Positions 33,131-47,497 of a stretch of 48,831 bases of DNA are shown in pieces. The position numbers were made by a program, and so were the translations under genes. Below the pieces are notes generated by a model. The model ran no database searches. It had not been told where the DNA came from and saw only the letters and a program-made list of their open reading frames with translations. Every line of letters starts with the position of its first letter. Within the stretch, counting starts at the first letter, position 1. Location of the stretch: the IMG/VR virus record IMGVR_UViG_3300033146_001161, positions 1 to 48,831 of that record; one strand, written 5' to 3'. This DNA comes from a virus.

Positions 33131-34429
33131 TTATGAGTTCTGTAAATTTATTTCAAACGGAACAACATCTCCATTCTTTCTAAATATAATAACACCTTGT
33201 GATGCATCGGCAGTAGATTTAACTTTAGTTTTACCATATTCATTAGAACCTTGCAATCCACCAGAGTACATTTCAAACGTATCACGATTCCTGCGGATTA
33301 TTATTCCATGATGTAGATGACCAAATACTATTATATCATATTGTGTATTATCAGTACCGTTGTACTTTTCGATTTTCTTCTCATCACCTTTTGAATCCAA
33401 GTGTCCATGTTGGTATCTTAAAGTTTTATTAAATATTTGCTCAACTTGATATAATCCAAAATCTTCCGATTCTAATATTTTTATATTATCAAATTTATCT
33501 ATTCCATTCTCTTTTGCAAATTGTAATAATTCATAGATATTTTTCATAACAACATATACTGCATTATCTCTTCCGACAGATTTTGATTTTTCACCAACTA
33601 GTCTATCATGGTTACCCAGAACCCCTCCAAGTGAGATATTGCAATGCTTTGCAAGCTTTAATACAAATTGTAATATCAACTTTTGAACTGCTACTAGCTG
33701 CTCAGATAGTGTTAATTCTAAATCATATTGTTGATTCAACCTCATATTACTTCCTTCGATTATATCTCCTAATATTGTAATAGATATCTCTGTGCAATTT
33801 TCAAGTTTTGCAGTTTCTAGCAATTTATCTGCATATCTATTTAATCTTCTTTTAGCTACATTTAAATTATATATATTATAATCCTCATCTATACTAACTC
33901 CAATATGCAAGTCTGATAAAAAACATTTTAAAATAGTTCCATTTTCATTATCTGATATTGGTTCAAATTCATCAAATTCTGGAATCTTTATTTCACCACT
34001 TTTTAAAAGATTTTTATATTGTTCGGTTAGTAGTACATATGGTGTAACATCTCTCACCAACTTTGACAAATCCAATCTTTCAAGTTGCATCTCTCGCTTT
34101 TTTATATTATATTCGCCAAGAATATCTTCAAACTTGCTTAGATGAGTTTTTGGCATCAATGTTTTTATTCCACCATTCGACTCTGTCTCACTGATAGTAT
34201 CAGCCGTCTCTTCTAATCTTTTTTTGTATCCATCATCATATCCTTCAAGATATTTTCTAGTATTTTTTCTATGAGCAGACTCGTCTTTAGAGTTTTCTGG
34301 ATATTCTTGATTTATAATAAAGCCAACAACATCATTTTTTAGATTCCAAGCATCTTGGTTTCTATATATTCTTATACAGAATTCATCATACGTCTCCCCT
34401 TCTAGCTTTGCATACTTCTCTTTTTCCAT
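33131..34429 (-). CDS. Calcineurin-like metallophosphoesterase
   Basis: A 432-residue phosphoesterase of the calcineurin superfamily using two metal ions. All motifs are present in order: SDLHIG (172-177), LGDIIEG (220-226), GNHDR (272-276), HGHLD (341-345) and FGHLHHG (369-375). The N-terminal 150 residues are a charged, helical extension that may bind nucleic acid or a partner. The substrate is unknown: nucleic acid ends, cyclic nucleotides or protein phosphates are possible. It starts after a 500-base gene-free stretch that probably encodes a structured RNA. Confidence 0.85.
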   Translation of the reverse strand: MEKEKYAKLEGETYDEFCIRIYRNQDAWNLKNDVVGFIINQEYPENSKDESAHRKNTRKYLEGYDDGYKKRLEETADTISETESNGGIKTLMPKTHLSKFEDILGEYNIKKREMQLERLDLSKLVRDVTPYVLLTEQYKNLLKSGEIKIPEFDEFEPISDNENGTILKCFLSDLHIGVSIDEDYNIYNLNVAKRRLNRYADKLLETAKLENCTEISITILGDIIEGSNMRLNQQYDLELTLSEQLVAVQKLILQFVLKLAKHCNISLGGVLGNHDRLVGEKSKSVGRDNAVYVVMKNIYELLQFAKENGIDKFDNIKILESEDFGLYQVEQIFNKTLRYQHGHLDSKGDEKKIEKYNGTDNTQYDIIVFGHLHHGIIIRRNRDTFEMYSGGLQGSNEYGKTKVKSTADASQGVIIFRKNGDVVPFEINLQNS

Positions 34430-34509
34430 TTTTATTCCTCCATTTTTATTGCACTCATTTTACTATTTACAATGTTATTATTATATTTTATTTAGTACAA
34501 GAAATGCAC

Positions 34510-34925
34510 TATAAAACAACCATTCACACTTTTTGCAAATAGTTGTTTTAACTATATTTCTTTTTATATCATCTGAGATTTAAGATATAAACACACCAAT
34601 TTATATTAGGCGTATTTACTACTTTTGAAGTCGCCATACTGTGGTAATGGCAAACCGGTTGATATAATATCACCCTCTACTATGGCTAGAGTTTTCTCCA
34701 TGTTATCGTTCCTACTATGGCTAGGATTCTCCAATTTGACTTTCAACTGAATAGTATTCGAACCGCTATCCTCGGGTAATGATTAAAAACACCCATAATC
34801 CAACAAATGGGTTTATCGTTCCCTACTATGGCTAGGATTCTCCATCTTAAATCTCAACAATAAACGATATTGATAACATAACAGGTAGTATTAGGCTAGC
34901 GTTATAGACTAGAATCACTTCCTGC
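34510..34925 (-). ncRNA. Candidate structured RNA with three hairpins sharing the loop GCCAUAG
   Basis: This gene-free stretch carries many stable stems in an otherwise AT-rich setting. Three hairpins at 34,675-34,691, 34,710-34,726 and 34,821-34,837 have 4-5 bp stems and an identical seven-base loop (GCCAUAG in the minus-strand RNA). Each is preceded by UGGAGAA, and two are followed by ACGAUAA. Further stems: 34,657-34,674, 34,633-34,651, 34,585-34,606, and a 12-bp stem 34,513-34,549 that could end the RNA. The strand is inferred from flanking genes. It is not a tRNA by any fold I could make. Large phage RNAs such as ROOL or GOLLD are families to compare. Confidence 0.5.
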
Positions 34926-34933
34926 TATGAAAT

Positions 34934-36166
34934 TTATAATACAATAGACTGACCCAGTTTAGGTATTGTTACTTTTGCATTTGGGAATGATTTTCCTAAC
35001 ATTTTGGCAAAACCCAAACATTGTGAGTCATCGCCATGTTGTACTATTATATTTTTAACTTTTTTCTTTTCCACTGTAGATAATGATTCAATTATCTCAA
35101 TACCACTCGCATGAGAGGAAAGTCCAGTGAACATATCGGTCTTAGCTCTAATTATAATAGTTTCTTTTATTCCATCTCTATACGTTATAATTTGTTTTTG
35201 TTTATTATTGATTATTAATGAACCTTCTGTTCCGTCTGCCAAAAATCCTGTAAAGCTAACTTTATTCTTTCTAGACTTCAATATAGTTGGCAATACCAGA
35301 TTATTTACTCCATGCGTCGACATTCCACTTGAAGCCAATATAATCATCGACTCATCTTTATTTATAATTCTTTCGACATCTTTAAACTCGCTAATCATTG
35401 TAATTTGACTCCAATTAAATAAATCCATTTCAGATCTCCACTCATCATCATAAAATTCTTCACCTAGACTTATTTCTCGATGTATTTTACACATCAACGG
35501 TGACATCGCATATATCTTGATTTTCTTTAATTCTGGATATTTCTCAAATGTCTTTTTTAAATATAACATTACATTAGTACTTCTTGCAAAACTAAAGACT
35601 GGTAATAAATACTTTCCATTCTTATCGATACAAGTTTCCACTATATTATCATGTAATTGCTCTATCATTTCATCTACACTTTTAGGCTTAACATAATTAT
35701 CACCATAAGTAGACTCTAAAACTATATCAGTAAATTTATAATTTTTATCAGACAAATCTAATTTTTTAGTATATGGCATATATCTATCACAAGATGTATC
35801 TCCACCAAATAATAATCGCTTAATATCATACCCATCTTTCACTTCCAATATAATAGAAGCGGAGCCTGATACGTGTCCATTTGGTATGAATTTAAATTTA
35901 ATATATTCATTGATTATTATCCATTTATCATATCCATATCCACGAATCATACTAGACATTTGTTCTTTAGTTTTTTCATTCATAAATGGGAATACATGTT
36001 GATGTTTCTTATTATGTTTATTTAACATCTCGATTGTTTTAAGATGTAGCTTTACTGAATCATCTATTATATGTTTTGATATATTCATAGTTAGTTCAGT
36101 CATATGTATTACTCCATCAAATTGTAATCTTGGTAATTGACTAAGATTTCCTACATGGTCTATCAC
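34934..36166 (-). CDS. Beta-CASP metallo-beta-lactamase RNase-like protein, C-terminal piece
   Basis: 410 codons, beginning GTG ATA GAC CAT, so the product starts M-I-D-H, the second half of the HxHxDH metal motif. Other beta-CASP (CPSF73/RNase J-like) motifs are present: LESTYGD, VFSFARSTN, ILASSGM, GLSSHASG and VQHGDD. The GTG overlaps the TGA of the N-terminal piece (GTGA). Either two coupled polypeptides form a split enzyme or the gene carries a small insertion/frameshift. Such enzymes cut RNA ends or mature RNAs. Confidence 0.7.
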   Translation of the reverse strand: MIDHVGNLSQLPRLQFDGVIHMTELTMNISKHIIDDSVKLHLKTIEMLNKHNKKHQHVFPFMNEKTKEQMSSMIRGYGYDKWIIINEYIKFKFIPNGHVSGSASIILEVKDGYDIKRLLFGGDTSCDRYMPYTKKLDLSDKNYKFTDIVLESTYGDNYVKPKSVDEMIEQLHDNIVETCIDKNGKYLLPVFSFARSTNVMLYLKKTFEKYPELKKIKIYAMSPLMCKIHREISLGEEFYDDEWRSEMDLFNWSQITMISEFKDVERIINKDESMIILASSGMSTHGVNNLVLPTILKSRKNKVSFTGFLADGTEGSLIINNKQKQIITYRDGIKETIIIRAKTDMFTGLSSHASGIEIIESLSTVEKKKVKNIIVQHGDDSQCLGFAKMLGKSFPNAKVTIPKLGQSIVL

Positions 36167-36405
36167 AGATGGGCATGTGTAATTAATACATGCCCAATAT
36201 CCTCCATATCTCTAGTTAATCTATTCATCTCTATTAATTGTTTTGCTTTTGCATTTTTCTGCAACATGCCACAATCTATTAATATTTTGTTTTCTACACC
36301 GCCAACTTTTATACTTAATAATGTGGCAGAGCCAGTAACTTCGACATCTGCTAATAATTTCTGGTATTTAATTTGTATTTTATTTTGACTCTTGCCCAAT
36401 ATCAC
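36163..36405 (-). CDS. Beta-CASP RNase-like protein, N-terminal piece ending in THAHL
   Basis: 80 codons matching the start of a metallo-beta-lactamase fold (GSATLLSIKVGG; KILIDCGMLQ) and stopping right after VLITHAHL. The next residues needed (DH) lie in the following gene, in another frame. Removing five bases at the junction would restore a continuous THAH-x-DH enzyme of about 490 residues. Start GTG (36,405) or nearby TTG (36,399); AAGGA lies upstream of both. Confidence 0.65.
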   Translation of the reverse strand: MILGKSQNKIQIKYQKLLADVEVTGSATLLSIKVGGVENKILIDCGMLQKNAKAKQLIEMNRLTRDMEDIGHVLITHAHL

Positions 36406-43053: not shown

Positions 43054-43872
43054 ATGATTATATTAAATAACAAGGAAGTATATGTCGTACGTTTTCCAAA
43101 TGGGGAAACTAACATTGACATTGAAGAATTATGTATATTAGAATCAAAGCCGAATATTATGAGATTTAAATTTGAAACTAATGAGGATTTGATAACTTTA
43201 ATGTTCTTAAAGAAACATTTAGATGAATATGAAAATGGTATGAAAATTGCCTTAATAATTGATTATATGCCTTATAGTAGAATGGATAGGAAGATAGAGG
43301 GTAAAGTATTCACTCTCAAATATATATCTGAATTCTTAAATAATTTAAATTTCAATCAAATATATGTACATGAACCTCATAGTGATGTATCTATTGCATT
43401 ATTAAATAGTTGCCACTTTGGTTATACGACTGTGGAAATTGCAAAGAGAGCTATGGAAGATATGAGTTTTAATAAAGATAAAGATTATGTATTATTTCCA
43501 GATGCGGGTGCACAAAAGAGATATGGAGAAACTTTTTCAGAGTTCAAAACTTTAATAGGATTCAAAACTAGAGACTTAGATAGTGGCAAAATAGAATCAT
43601 TAGCTATATACGGAGATGGCAAACTAGAAGGGAATAAAGTTTTAATAATAGATGACTTATGTAGCAGAGGTGAAACATTTATGAGAAGTGCAGAAGCGGT
43701 TGAAGCAATTGGTGGTGGTGATACATATCTTGCGGTAACCCATCTGGAGAATAATGTATTGACTGGATACTTACCTACATCACATTTAATTAAAGGTGTA
43801 TATGCATCCGAATCTATCTGTACTAGGGCAAGTTTTGAGAAACTAACATTGTTCAATTTGGAGGATATGTAA
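43054..43872 (+). CDS. PRPP-synthetase-like enzyme, possible ADP-ribose pyrophosphate synthetase (Adps-like)
   Basis: A 272-residue member of the ribose-phosphate pyrophosphokinase family, shorter than the usual 310-320. Motifs: YMPYSRMDRK (71-80), HEPHSD (106-111), PDAGAQKRY (149-157), and the PRPP-loop equivalent VLIIDDLCSRGET (196-208). It transfers pyrophosphate from ATP to a ribose-5-phosphate (PRPP synthesis) or, as in NARP1 Adps, to ADP-ribose. Its operon with a macro-domain protein and a NAMPT-like enzyme makes a role in NAD+ rebuilding likely. Which substrate is used cannot be read from sequence alone. Ribosome site AAAGGAGAG. Confidence 0.8.
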   Translation: MIILNNKEVYVVRFPNGETNIDIEELCILESKPNIMRFKFETNEDLITLMFLKKHLDEYENGMKIALIIDYMPYSRMDRKIEGKVFTLKYISEFLNNLNFNQIYVHEPHSDVSIALLNSCHFGYTTVEIAKRAMEDMSFNKDKDYVLFPDAGAQKRYGETFSEFKTLIGFKTRDLDSGKIESLAIYGDGKLEGNKVLIIDDLCSRGETFMRSAEAVEAIGGGDTYLAVTHLENNVLTGYLPTSHLIKGVYASESICTRASFEKLTLFNLEDM

Positions 43873-43873
43873 T

Positions 43874-44332
43874 ATGAGTGTAGAGATAATCAAGGGTGAT
43901 TTATTTGAGACGGATTGTCAAGTAATTGGACATCAAGTAAATTGTAAAGGTGTAATAGGAAGTGGAGTAGCTTTGCAAGTAAGAAAGAAGTACCCAATAG
44001 CATATAGACATTATTTAGCCAGGTCTGAAATCTCAAATGTATTTGGAACAGTAGGTGTTGTCAAAGTATCGGACAATCTACATATAGCAAATATATATAG
44101 CCAAGATAGTTATGGTTACGACGGTGAGCAATATACTAGTCTAATCGCATTCGAGAACGCTTTAAAGCTATTAAATAGAACGATGAGACAAATAGGTTTG
44201 ACAAGTGTGGCATTGCCATATAAAATAGGATGTGTAAGAGGTGGTGCAGATTGGAATATGGTATCATCTATTATAGAAAAAACACTAGGATATAATTTAA
44301 CTGTTAAACTATATCAGCTAGATAAAGGATAA
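43874..44332 (+). CDS. Macro-domain protein (ADP-ribose-binding type)
   Basis: A 152-residue single macro domain. Signature: IIKGDLF at the start, NCKGVIGSGVALQVRKKYP (23-41) as the glycine-rich ligand loop, and SVALPYKIGCVRGGADW (136-152 region in family order) near the end, closest in look to the Poa1/TARG1/DarG group. Such domains bind or hydrolyse ADP-ribose derivatives: ADP-ribose-1''-phosphate, ADP-ribosyl-DNA or protein. It lies one base after the PRPP-synthetase-like gene and 15 bases before the NAMPT-like gene, so it is part of the NAD+ operon. Catalytic ability is unproven. Confidence 0.85.
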   Translation: MSVEIIKGDLFETDCQVIGHQVNCKGVIGSGVALQVRKKYPIAYRHYLARSEISNVFGTVGVVKVSDNLHIANIYSQDSYGYDGEQYTSLIAFENALKLLNRTMRQIGLTSVALPYKIGCVRGGADWNMVSSIIEKTLGYNLTVKLYQLDKG

Positions 44333-44347
44333 AAGGAGAAATAAATT

Positions 44348-45850
44348 ATGAAAAATATTAATACAATGTTATTACTCGATGGATACAAACTGGGACATAG
44401 GATTCAATATCCAAAAGGTACTGAAAAAGTATACTCTACATTTACACCAAGAGGGAGTAGAATAGATGGAGTGGATGAAATTGTATTCTTCGGACTACAA
44501 GCATTTATAAAAAAATATCTAATAGATTACTATAATGTAAACTTTTTTGAGGAAGATATAGATGAAATAGTAAATGACTATAAGAGATTTATTAAATATT
44601 ATTTAGGAGATGATGATGCAGACGTAGAACACATTAGAAATCTACATAAACTTGGTTATTTACCAATTGAAATTAGAGCAATTAAAGAAGGTTTGAAAGT
44701 TCAAATGAGAGTGCCTATGTTTACAATAGAGAGTACTCATCCAGAGTTTTCATGGATTACAAATTATCTAGAAACGCTTGTATCATCTGAAATGTGGTAT
44801 CCAATTGTTAGTGCAAATACTTCTTTAATGTATAGAGATATTGCAGATAGGTTTGCAAAAGAAACCATTGGGGATACAGGGTTTTCAAAGTTCCAATGTC
44901 ATGACTTCTCACAAAGAGGACAACATTGTACTGAAAGTGCAATATTAAGTGGCATGGCTCATATGTTAAGCTTTGTAGGTACAGACGTTGTCCCAGCAGT
45001 TGTAAATATTGAAAAATATTACAATGGAAATATGGAGAAAGAAATGATTGGGGTTTCTGTAAATGCAACAGAACATGCAGTAATGTGTGCTGGTGAAAAA
45101 GATTCTGAATATGAAACTTATAAGAGATTATTAACTGAAACATACCCAAAAGGTATTATATCTATTGTATCTGATACGTGGGATTATTGGAATGTATTAA
45201 CTGATATTTTGGTTAAATTAAAACCTATCATAATGGAAAGAAATGGTGTTACAACTCTTCGCCCCGACTCAGGAAATCCTTTCAAAATAATTTGTGGTGA
45301 CCCAGAGTCAAATTTAGAACATGTTAGAAAAGGTTCTATAGAAGTATTATGGGATTTATTTGGCGGAAGTATCAATAATCTTGGATATAAAGTATTGGAT
45401 AGCCATATAGGACTTATTTATGGGGAGGCTATACAACCTCAGTTAATGGAAAGTATCCTTAAAAGATTAAAAGAAAAAGGCTTTGCTTCGACAAACATTC
45501 TATTTGGAGTTGGCTCTTATGGATTTTTAAGCGGTGGCGTTGGAGGTGGTATTGCAACTAGAGATACGTTTGGAATCGCATGTAAGGCTACTTATGTTGT
45601 AGTAAATGGCGAGGAGAGAAAAATATTCAAAGACCCTAAAACTGATGATGGATTGAAGAAGTCTCAAAAAGGTATGGTAGTTGTTGCATTAAATGAAAAT
45701 GATAAAATGATTGCAATTGATGACAACACATCATCAGAAAGGGATTATTTGAGTTCAGTAGACTTATTGGAAGTTGTATTTAAAAATGGAAAACTAATAA
45801 GAGATGATTCTATCTCTGATATTAGAAATAGGATTCATAATAACTTTTAA
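44348..45850 (+). CDS. NAMPT-like phosphoribosyltransferase (or NAD+-forming Namat)
   Basis: A 500-residue member of the nicotinamide phosphoribosyltransferase family, the usual length. Substrate residues match human NAMPT: Arg190 in HDFSQRG, Asp213 in GTDVVPA, His243 in NATEH, and Arg305/Asp307 in LRPDSGNP. The GGVGGGIATRD loop and FKDPKTDDGLKKSQKG tail fit as well. It joins nicotinamide to PRPP, giving NMN, or to ADP-ribose pyrophosphate, giving NAD+ directly (NARP1). Third gene of the tight NAD operon. Ribosome site AAAAGGAG. Confidence 0.9.
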   Translation: MKNINTMLLLDGYKLGHRIQYPKGTEKVYSTFTPRGSRIDGVDEIVFFGLQAFIKKYLIDYYNVNFFEEDIDEIVNDYKRFIKYYLGDDDADVEHIRNLHKLGYLPIEIRAIKEGLKVQMRVPMFTIESTHPEFSWITNYLETLVSSEMWYPIVSANTSLMYRDIADRFAKETIGDTGFSKFQCHDFSQRGQHCTESAILSGMAHMLSFVGTDVVPAVVNIEKYYNGNMEKEMIGVSVNATEHAVMCAGEKDSEYETYKRLLTETYPKGIISIVSDTWDYWNVLTDILVKLKPIIMERNGVTTLRPDSGNPFKIICGDPESNLEHVRKGSIEVLWDLFGGSINNLGYKVLDSHIGLIYGEAIQPQLMESILKRLKEKGFASTNILFGVGSYGFLSGGVGGGIATRDTFGIACKATYVVVNGEERKIFKDPKTDDGLKKSQKGMVVVALNENDKMIAIDDNTSSERDYLSSVDLLEVVFKNGKLIRDDSISDIRNRIHNNF

Positions 45851-45879
45851 AAAAATAATTAAATTAATTTCAATAAGTG

Positions 45880-45908
45880 TTGACACATCAGAAATGGTGT
45901 GTTATGCT
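45880..45908 (+). promoter_or_regulatory. Sigma-A promoter overlapping the KilAC gene start
   Basis: TTGACA (45,880-45,885), 17-base spacer, TATGCT (45,903-45,908). It lies on top of the first codons of the open frame that follows, so the true coding start must be further right. Confidence 0.7.
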
Positions 45909-45943
45909 TATATCAACCTAAAGCAGATAACTATGAAATATTA

Positions 45944-46213
45944 ATGGACTCCAAAGGTGATATTGATTTTGCATCTTTTGTGAAGAGTGCCAATTTAATA
46001 TTTGGAAGAAATACATTTGTCAACAAATTAAGAGATAATGAGATAATCAGATCCAAGCCTAGTACTGAACCATATCAAAGATTTATTGATATTGGATATT
46101 TCAAGGTAATCCAAACTGTTAAAGGACTGCATAGTTATCCTAAAACATTGATAACTAAAAAGGGTATAGATTGGTTAATGAAAAAATGTAAAGAGTGGGA
46201 GATTTTAAAATAA
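45944..46213 (+). CDS. KilAC-type antirepressor domain, N-terminally truncated
   Basis: 89 residues matching the C-terminal KilAC/ANT domain of phage antirepressors (ASFVKSANLIFGRNTFVNKL and the closing TLITKKGIDWLMKKC). The usual N-terminal Bro/Ant or DNA-binding half is missing. The frame is open from GTG 45,899, but the promoter overlaps that codon, so I start at ATG 45,944, which lacks a clear ribosome site. It is likely a remnant or a free-standing antirepressor module. Confidence 0.55.
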   Translation: MDSKGDIDFASFVKSANLIFGRNTFVNKLRDNEIIRSKPSTEPYQRFIDIGYFKVIQTVKGLHSYPKTLITKKGIDWLMKKCKEWEILK

Positions 46214-46245
46214 CCTACGACTACTCAAATTCGTATAGCCTCAAA

Positions 46246-46273
46246 AATAAGCTATAAGCTATAAGCTATAAAC
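46246..46273. repeat. 7-base tandem repeat (AAGCTAT) in the RtcB leader
   Basis: About four units, the last imperfect, directly before the AAAAGGAG ribosome site of the RtcB gene; another example of short repeats placed in gene leaders. Confidence 0.8.
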
Positions 46274-46291
46274 TATAAAAGGAGAAATAAT

Positions 46292-47497
46292 ATGTATGAA
46301 ATAAAAGGAAAATATGGAGTAGCAAAGATAATGTCTGAAAACTTAGATATTAAATCATTTGACCAAATTCAAAAATTAATGGATAATCCTAGTGCAGAGG
46401 GAAGTAAAGTTAGAATTATGCCAGACTATCATTATGGAGCAAGTTGTGTAATTGGAACTACTATGGAAGTAAAGGATAAGGTTATCCCCAATGTAGTTGG
46501 AGTAGATATAGGTTGTGGGGTTTTAGCAGTTAAGATAGCAGAGAAAGATATTAATTTAAAAGAGATTGATGATTTTATTACTAATAATATACCAAGTGGG
46601 TTCAGAGTTAACAAAGAGCCAATTGAATCATTTGATATAACTAAACTAAGATGTTTAGACAACTTGAAATTAACTTCTAAAGATGTTAATAGAGCGATGT
46701 GTTCAATCGGAACATTAGGTGGTGGAAATCATTTCATAGAAATAGATGAGGATTCAAGTGGTAAGAAATATATCATAGTACACACTGGAAGTAGAGGATT
46801 AGGATTAAAAGTTGCCAATTATTATCAAGACTTAGCAATTGATATGATGAAAAAAGAAAACTCATTAAGAAGAAGTCAAGCAGTGGATGCTTTGAAAAAA
46901 TTGGGAAAAGAAGAGTCTATAGAAGGAGTATTGAAAAATATAGGGAGATTAATACCAAAAGATATGTCGTATTTATCTGGTCAAGGGTTAGAGGACTATT
47001 TACACGATATTGGTATTATCCAAAGATATGCAGAGTTAAATAGGGAGACTATAATAAATAGGATAGTGAGTGAGTTTGGATTCAATATTGAATTAAAGAT
47101 TGAAAGTGTTCATAATTTCATAGAAGATAGTATACTTAGGAAGGGTGCCATATCTGCAAAATTAGGTCAACCTGTAATAATACCACTAAATATGAGAGAT
47201 GGTTGTATACTTGGGTTTGGTAGAGGCAGAATAGATTATAATGAATCTGCACCTCATGGAGCCGGAAGAGTGTACAGCAGAACAAAAGCTAAAAAGGAAA
47301 TATCTATGGATGATTATATAAAATTTATGGAAACTGTATACTCTACAAGTGTAAATAAATCAACATTAGACGAAGCTCCACAAGCATATAAAAATATGGA
47401 TGAGATAATAAAAGAGGTAGATAAAACTGTTGAAATTTCAATGGTAATTAAGCCTATATATAATTTCAAAGATAGTAAGGAGGTTTACACATGCTAA
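46292..47497 (+). CDS. rtcB: RtcB-type RNA ligase
   Basis: A 401-residue RNA ligase that seals 2',3'-cyclic phosphate and 5'-OH ends with GTP and manganese. Metal residues: Cys75 (VGVDIGCG), His147 (TLGGGNHF), His164 (VHTGSRG), His274 (SVHNF); guanylylated His322 (PHGAGRVYSR). Length as in E. coli RtcB (408). In phages it can repair tRNAs cut by host defence nucleases. The segment before the last histidine (PLNMRDGCILGFG) differs from the usual PGSMGTASY form, so it belongs to a divergent branch. Confidence 0.95.
   Translation: MYEIKGKYGVAKIMSENLDIKSFDQIQKLMDNPSAEGSKVRIMPDYHYGASCVIGTTMEVKDKVIPNVVGVDIGCGVLAVKIAEKDINLKEIDDFITNNIPSGFRVNKEPIESFDITKLRCLDNLKLTSKDVNRAMCSIGTLGGGNHFIEIDEDSSGKKYIIVHTGSRGLGLKVANYYQDLAIDMMKKENSLRRSQAVDALKKLGKEESIEGVLKNIGRLIPKDMSYLSGQGLEDYLHDIGIIQRYAELNRETIINRIVSEFGFNIELKIESVHNFIEDSILRKGAISAKLGQPVIIPLNMRDGCILGFGRGRIDYNESAPHGAGRVYSRTKAKKEISMDDYIKFMETVYSTSVNKSTLDEAPQAYKNMDEIIKEVDKTVEISMVIKPIYNFKDSKEVYTC

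Follow-up and report, generated by a model that had tools for sequence, protein, structure and literature searches.

ToxI-like pseudoknot units at a noncoding phage site suggest a natural RNA mimic of a type III antitoxin

ToxI is the H-type pseudoknot RNA antitoxin of the type III ToxIN abortive-infection systems, in which ToxN is the endoribonuclease toxin. In type III loci, the toxin gene directly follows the antitoxin repeats (PMC5086642). Escape mutants of phage PhiTE multiply ToxI-like repeats and in this way evade ToxN, the toxin being suppressed by this pseudo-ToxI (PMC3475682). The wild type carries 1.5 repeats without a complete pseudoknot RNA, and evasion of ToxIN is confined to the expanded mutants (Blower et al. 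2012, PMC3475682). Within the literature searched, which includes few subscription papers or preprints, mimicry of an antitoxin RNA is documented for one phage, and only after mutant selection.

The window, that is the whole 48.8-kb stretch of phage DNA analysed here, comes from an SPbeta-like phage and includes a noncoding gap of 504 nt (34430-34933) with no ORF of at least 60 aa inside. As the first-pass annotation had described, the gap lies between an RNase-like gene, encoding a beta-CASP metallo-beta-lactamase (34934-36166), and a gene for a calcineurin-like phosphoesterase (33131-34429). The neighbouring genes are all on the minus strand, as are the three motif copies considered below, and we regard the minus strand of the gap as a putative structured RNA. 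Its fold compared with shuffles gives z -4.5 on this strand and z -3.1 on the plus strand, in line with the earlier view of a hairpin-rich, structured region. The 12-bp stem reported at the gap end is indeed present near the RNA 3′ end (about 34513-34549), and the fold places another hairpin, CAUAGCAGG...CCUGUUAUG, on the 5′ side (34877-34929). A 13-bp stem without mismatch, previously overlooked, encloses the three units in both MFE and centroid folds (5′ arm 34844-34856, 3′ arm 34574-34586, minus strand). A clear promoter or terminator was looked for at the gap and none was found. Two further observations concern this region. Between units A and B, a GGAUAG-CGGUUCGAAUA-CUAUUC hairpin (~34756-34780, minus strand) contains GGUUCGAAU, which resembles a tRNA T-loop. 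The beta-lactamase-fold RNase gene (36163-36405 + 34934-36166) is frame-split at a THAHLDH-type motif, which points to a sequencing error or else to a frameshift; another phage locus, L006, carries such a gene in a single frame.

The motif CTAGCCATAGTAG is present in exactly three exact copies in the window, all on the minus strand (34677-34689, 34712-34724 and 34823-34835). When the whole window is shuffled, 0.79 matches occur at two mismatches or fewer, and none of 100 shuffles reaches four. The copies define units A (34812-34846), B (34700-34735) and C (about 34664-34702, delimited from the sequence). B and C stand head-to-tail about 33-35 nt apart, which is the ToxI spacing and had escaped the first reading, and 111 nt separate A from B. 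The three copies and the compensating stem changes that had been noted are real: CC/GG alternates with CU/AG, and the outer pair is T-A, T-G or C-G. The fixed seven bases are, however, not a mere loop, as their CCA can pair with UGG of the lead-in to form a stem S1, next to the stem S2 formed by UCCUA and UAGGA. Lead-in and loop would both be fixed because of this UGG-CCA pairing, while the S2 arms vary as pairs. Unit C has a CUCUA/UAGAG stem and a first loop (L1) longer by 2 nt. S1 of the phage units comprises only 2-3 bp and the A-rich linkers typical of real ToxI are poor in them; pseudoknot pairing is nonetheless possible in all three. The sequence argues strongly for reading the window hairpins as H-type pseudoknots like that of ToxI. 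A simple DNA operator was considered and rejected, since a constant spacer separates arms that vary as pairs and the units match ToxI.

No Rfam family matched at its own threshold anywhere in the window, and the comparison with ROOL-like RNAs made in the first-pass annotation is not supported: ROOL, GOLLD and HEARO gave no covariance match in the gap region even at E 10. The Rfam search which it had proposed did bring out ToxI, RF02519 aligning with unit B over positions 1-34 of 34 at 26.7 bits under permissive settings, below its gathering threshold of 50 bits and with a covariance model that cannot represent the pseudoknot. With regard to the tandem repetition of ToxI (34-36 nt), B and C are in tandem and A stands apart, while a related locus, L001, has one unit only. 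The notion of a functional structured RNA or protein-binding array gains substance here, the units matching the pseudoknot that binds ToxN. Altogether, there is a strong case from sequence that the three-unit RNA is a ToxI-type antitoxin RNA without its toxin.

Genuine ToxI arrays were obtained from bacteria. A Tepidimicrobium genome gave access to one class, in which ToxN (PF13958) was found in 36 of 391 genomes, and the DNA upstream of these clostridial genes contains tandem repeats that are real ToxI arrays. Repeats of one array (L022), GGAGTATCCTACCATAAGTGGAG and GGAGTATCCAAGCCATAAGTTGGAA, are very close to the phage sequence GGAGAATCCTAGCCATAGTAGGAA, and the ToxN next to them matches that of B. 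thuringiensis, whose structure is solved (4ato, E 2.4e-24). We built a covariance model, R1, from 35 ToxN-adjacent ToxI repeats, phage sequences being excluded. Pairs in both helices of its alignment covary, a result reached in 0 of 500 shuffles; covariation in an alignment of phage, L022 and Rfam sequences, the check suggested earlier, appears as well, in S2 (1 of 500 shuffles). Over 123 kb comprising the window and relatives, the six best R1 places all fall on the CTAGCCATAGTAG motif, those of the unit shared by L001 and L002 being the same places within four overlapping loci. Unit B scores 19.3 bits, the L001/L002 unit 17.4 bits and unit A 14.9 bits over its full length; the best window unit has E 0.0089 and the second E 0.18, R1 E-values being rough. 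Unit C was not recovered by R1 in these 123 kb, probably because of its longer L1.

To find a host ToxIN carrying exactly this repeat, a strict pattern was run on genomes of 84,980 species; it gave six single places and no repeat array. The ToxI consensus found no match among plasmids. One match to a looser pattern (L007), near a serine recombinase gene, is probably not ToxI.

The ToxI-like units recur among relatives. Through the neighbouring 925-aa RNA-polymerase-like protein (YonO type), we reached 80 related phage loci. In 1.24 Mb of related phages, the top four R1 matches (33.1, 26.9, 25.1 and 18.9 bits) come from three phages (L055 twice, L056 and L067) and share one intergenic site; the best elsewhere is 17.2 bits. 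This site lies downstream of the yonO-like gene, between the HU-like gene (yonN) and the PhoH, YonK or phosphoesterase genes. L055 and L067 each carry two tandem units. SPbeta has at this site about 1.7 kb without annotated genes and one ToxI-like unit, at about 59811-59849 of NC_001884; 18 nt of the unit are identical to L055 where shuffles reach at most 11. On R1 alone, this unit scores 14.9 bits, within noise for its 20 kb; we accept it because of the site, the 18-nt identity and the SPbeta-group variants L154 and L172 at 19.6 and 19.4 bits. The Goe11 group keeps the SPbeta unit, and an IMG/VR search with the SPbeta/L055 core led to further phages, including L163 (25.6 bits with R1) and L170 (27.9 bits). 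In the stretches scanned of the cultured phages FADO, 2S-4 and Sundance, no ToxI unit was found.

No ToxN (PF13958) is present in the window record, and none was detected in three further records (G001-G003), in 32 relatives or in seven others, among them the complete SPbeta and phi3T; the two later searches (relatives and seven more records) included a bacterial positive control. SPbeta, Goe11, L154, L163, L170 and L172 thus add to the carriers of a unit without ToxN. The gene after the window units encodes the phosphoesterase, and with no ToxN the locus is therefore not a type III toxin-antitoxin locus as defined in PMC5086642. The units, being real ToxI units, could still be the antitoxin of a type III system of the phage's own, serving addiction or superinfection exclusion, with a toxin elsewhere or unrecognised, all the more so as the 48.8-kb window record is possibly a fragment. 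We hold this to be improbable, given that a type III toxin directly follows its repeats and that about 40 phage records, several of them of 110-217 kb or complete, are ToxN-negative.

Other RNAs occupy the same site. Skipping-rope RNA (RF02924) stands beside the ToxI-like unit in L001/L002 (L001 2210-2309) and L055 (11130-11232), and weakly in L056; it shares a record with the unit in L163, stands alone in L071 (5581-5678), and was also located in L097 (10874-10952). Since several phages have it at or close to the yonN-yonK position, its function may be linked to counter-defence. DUF3800-VIII RNA (RF03075) is found at this site in SPbeta, Goe11 and phi3T; in SPbeta, it lies within the stretch without annotated genes (59409-59474, L140 9410-9475). 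In phi3T (L144) and BUCT083 (L148), units of the form GUUG-N-CARG-CAAC-AUAAAAA-CUUG, with CGAG in BUCT083, replace the ToxI-like unit right after the same hairpin. They can fold into an H-type pseudoknot whose L1 is a single base and whose L2 is A-rich, as in published descriptions of the type III antitoxin CptI (PMC4627078). None was found beside a toxin gene in bacterial genomes, so that the CptI-like reading is only a lead; two matches in 398 genomes of the phylum were unrelated single matches and were set aside. Small hairpins with changing stems precede these units in phi3T and BUCT083, and similar pairs occur on megaplasmids of Aneurinibacillus and Jeotgalibacillus (L151, L152). Two kinds of tRNA-like sequence with an abnormal anticodon arm were also seen, an element in L001 (2654-2728) with stem UCUGAC/GUCAGA, loop UUCA and no anticodon, and tRNA-Leu-like elements with an altered middle near yonN in phi3T, BUCT083 and SPbetaL1.

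This exchange of contents bears on a second explanation, in which the RNA would be structural or serve packaging (pRNA-like, terminase-associated), or would regulate late genes in cis, the pseudoknot being shared with ToxI by chance. The noncoding region does immediately precede the genes for the phosphoesterase, a TerS-like protein and TerL, at a site that is conserved. This explanation nevertheless appears unlikely in view of the sequence-level match to real ToxI arrays and of what fills the site: SPbeta has a ToxI-like unit there, phi3T a different pseudoknot, SPR and SPbetaL3 neither of the two, and a staphylococcal SPbeta-like phage no such gap at the corresponding place. A non-functional remnant of a captured ToxIN locus, which the single unit of L001/L002 and the uneven spacing in the window might recall, is the least probable of all in the face of three units with compensating stem changes, an enclosing stem, and a 26-nt block common to the window phage and one whose TerL is only 44-46% identical.

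One may tentatively go further and imagine the yonN-yonK/phosphoesterase site of SPbeta-like phages as a modular island of swappable RNA mimics, decoys for RNA antitoxins and tRNAs of the host, comprising ToxI units, CptI-like pseudoknots, tRNA-like elements, DUF3800-VIII and skipping-rope RNAs, each directed against a different RNA-based defence, although we would put this at somewhat less than an even chance. If true, skipping-rope RNA would also gain a role.

The reading that we favour, with a probability of about 0.72, is that the window RNA acts as an antitoxin mimic, a decoy neutralising host ToxN during infection. It builds on what was observed, namely relatedness to genuine ToxI repeats, a potential for pseudoknot pairing, the spacing of the tandem units, the lack of ToxN in the records searched and recurrence at a syntenic site; from these we infer transcription, ToxN binding and a counter-defence role. 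The minus strand of 34430-34933 would give a structured RNA displaying three ToxI-type pseudoknots. As the phage shuts down host transcription, host ToxI would decay and ToxN be released, in keeping with the freeing of ToxN when host transcription stops (Guegler and Laub 2021, as cited in PMC9391042). The phage RNA would then bind ToxN-family endoribonucleases, filling the RNA-binding groove and active site, and by analogy saturate ToxN; with ToxN occupied, abortive infection would be prevented. Against the decoy count the missed RF02519 threshold, the poor A-rich linkers, the distance of unit A from B, the lack of a matching host ToxIN among the genomes searched, the lack of a clear promoter or terminator, and the fragmentary record, in which a toxin gene elsewhere in the phage would be missed. 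The selectivity of ToxI-ToxN pairs (PMC5086642) also speaks against it.

At the right end of the window, a plus-strand cluster (43054-47497) contains genes for a PRPP-synthetase-like protein, a DarG-like macrodomain (152 aa), a NAMPT-like protein and an RtcB RNA ligase. These are likely counter-defence genes. The combination of Prs and NAMPT domains resembles that of NARP1, a pathway that restores NAD; the macrodomain may be an antitoxin lacking DarT. Such a counter-defence and RNA-repair setting fits the decoy reading and does not prove it.

What looks new is that a classical phage group would have a noncoding site for RNA mimics that is natural, conserved and swappable. The mimicry device seems here to occur naturally and in several copies, conserved at a fixed position in a well-studied group, and the membership of SPbeta of B. 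subtilis makes the idea directly testable. The finding suggests a role for the 1.7-kb stretch of SPbeta that has no annotated genes. It also gives a starting point for work on skipping-rope and DUF3800-VIII RNAs, which share the noncoding site in relatives but have other folds and were not found in the window.

Phage inhibitors of defensive toxin-antitoxin toxins are already known in T4 TifA and in a Vibrio phage antitoxin mimic acting against DarTG (PMC10853763, PMC11481870), but these are proteins and not RNA. RNA anti-CRISPRs (Racr, PMC10651486) come near in another way, being phage noncoding RNAs that mimic the RNA part of a defence; their targets are Cas proteins, whereas that of the window RNA would be a toxin. 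With the ToxI of ToxIN-Bt, AbiQ and ToxIN-Pa (RF02519), the window units share a 34-36-nt H-type pseudoknot, in tandem for B and C, a GG/CC stem S1, a UCC/GGA stem S2 and AUAG/UAAG between them. They differ in that the phage RNA is followed by neither a ToxN gene nor a terminator, has reduced A-rich linkers and carries its units inside a larger folded RNA closed by the 13-bp stem. The pseudo-ToxI of PhiTE is likewise a phage-borne ToxI-like sequence without ToxN, but the window phage naturally has three complete units, at a site conserved across its group.
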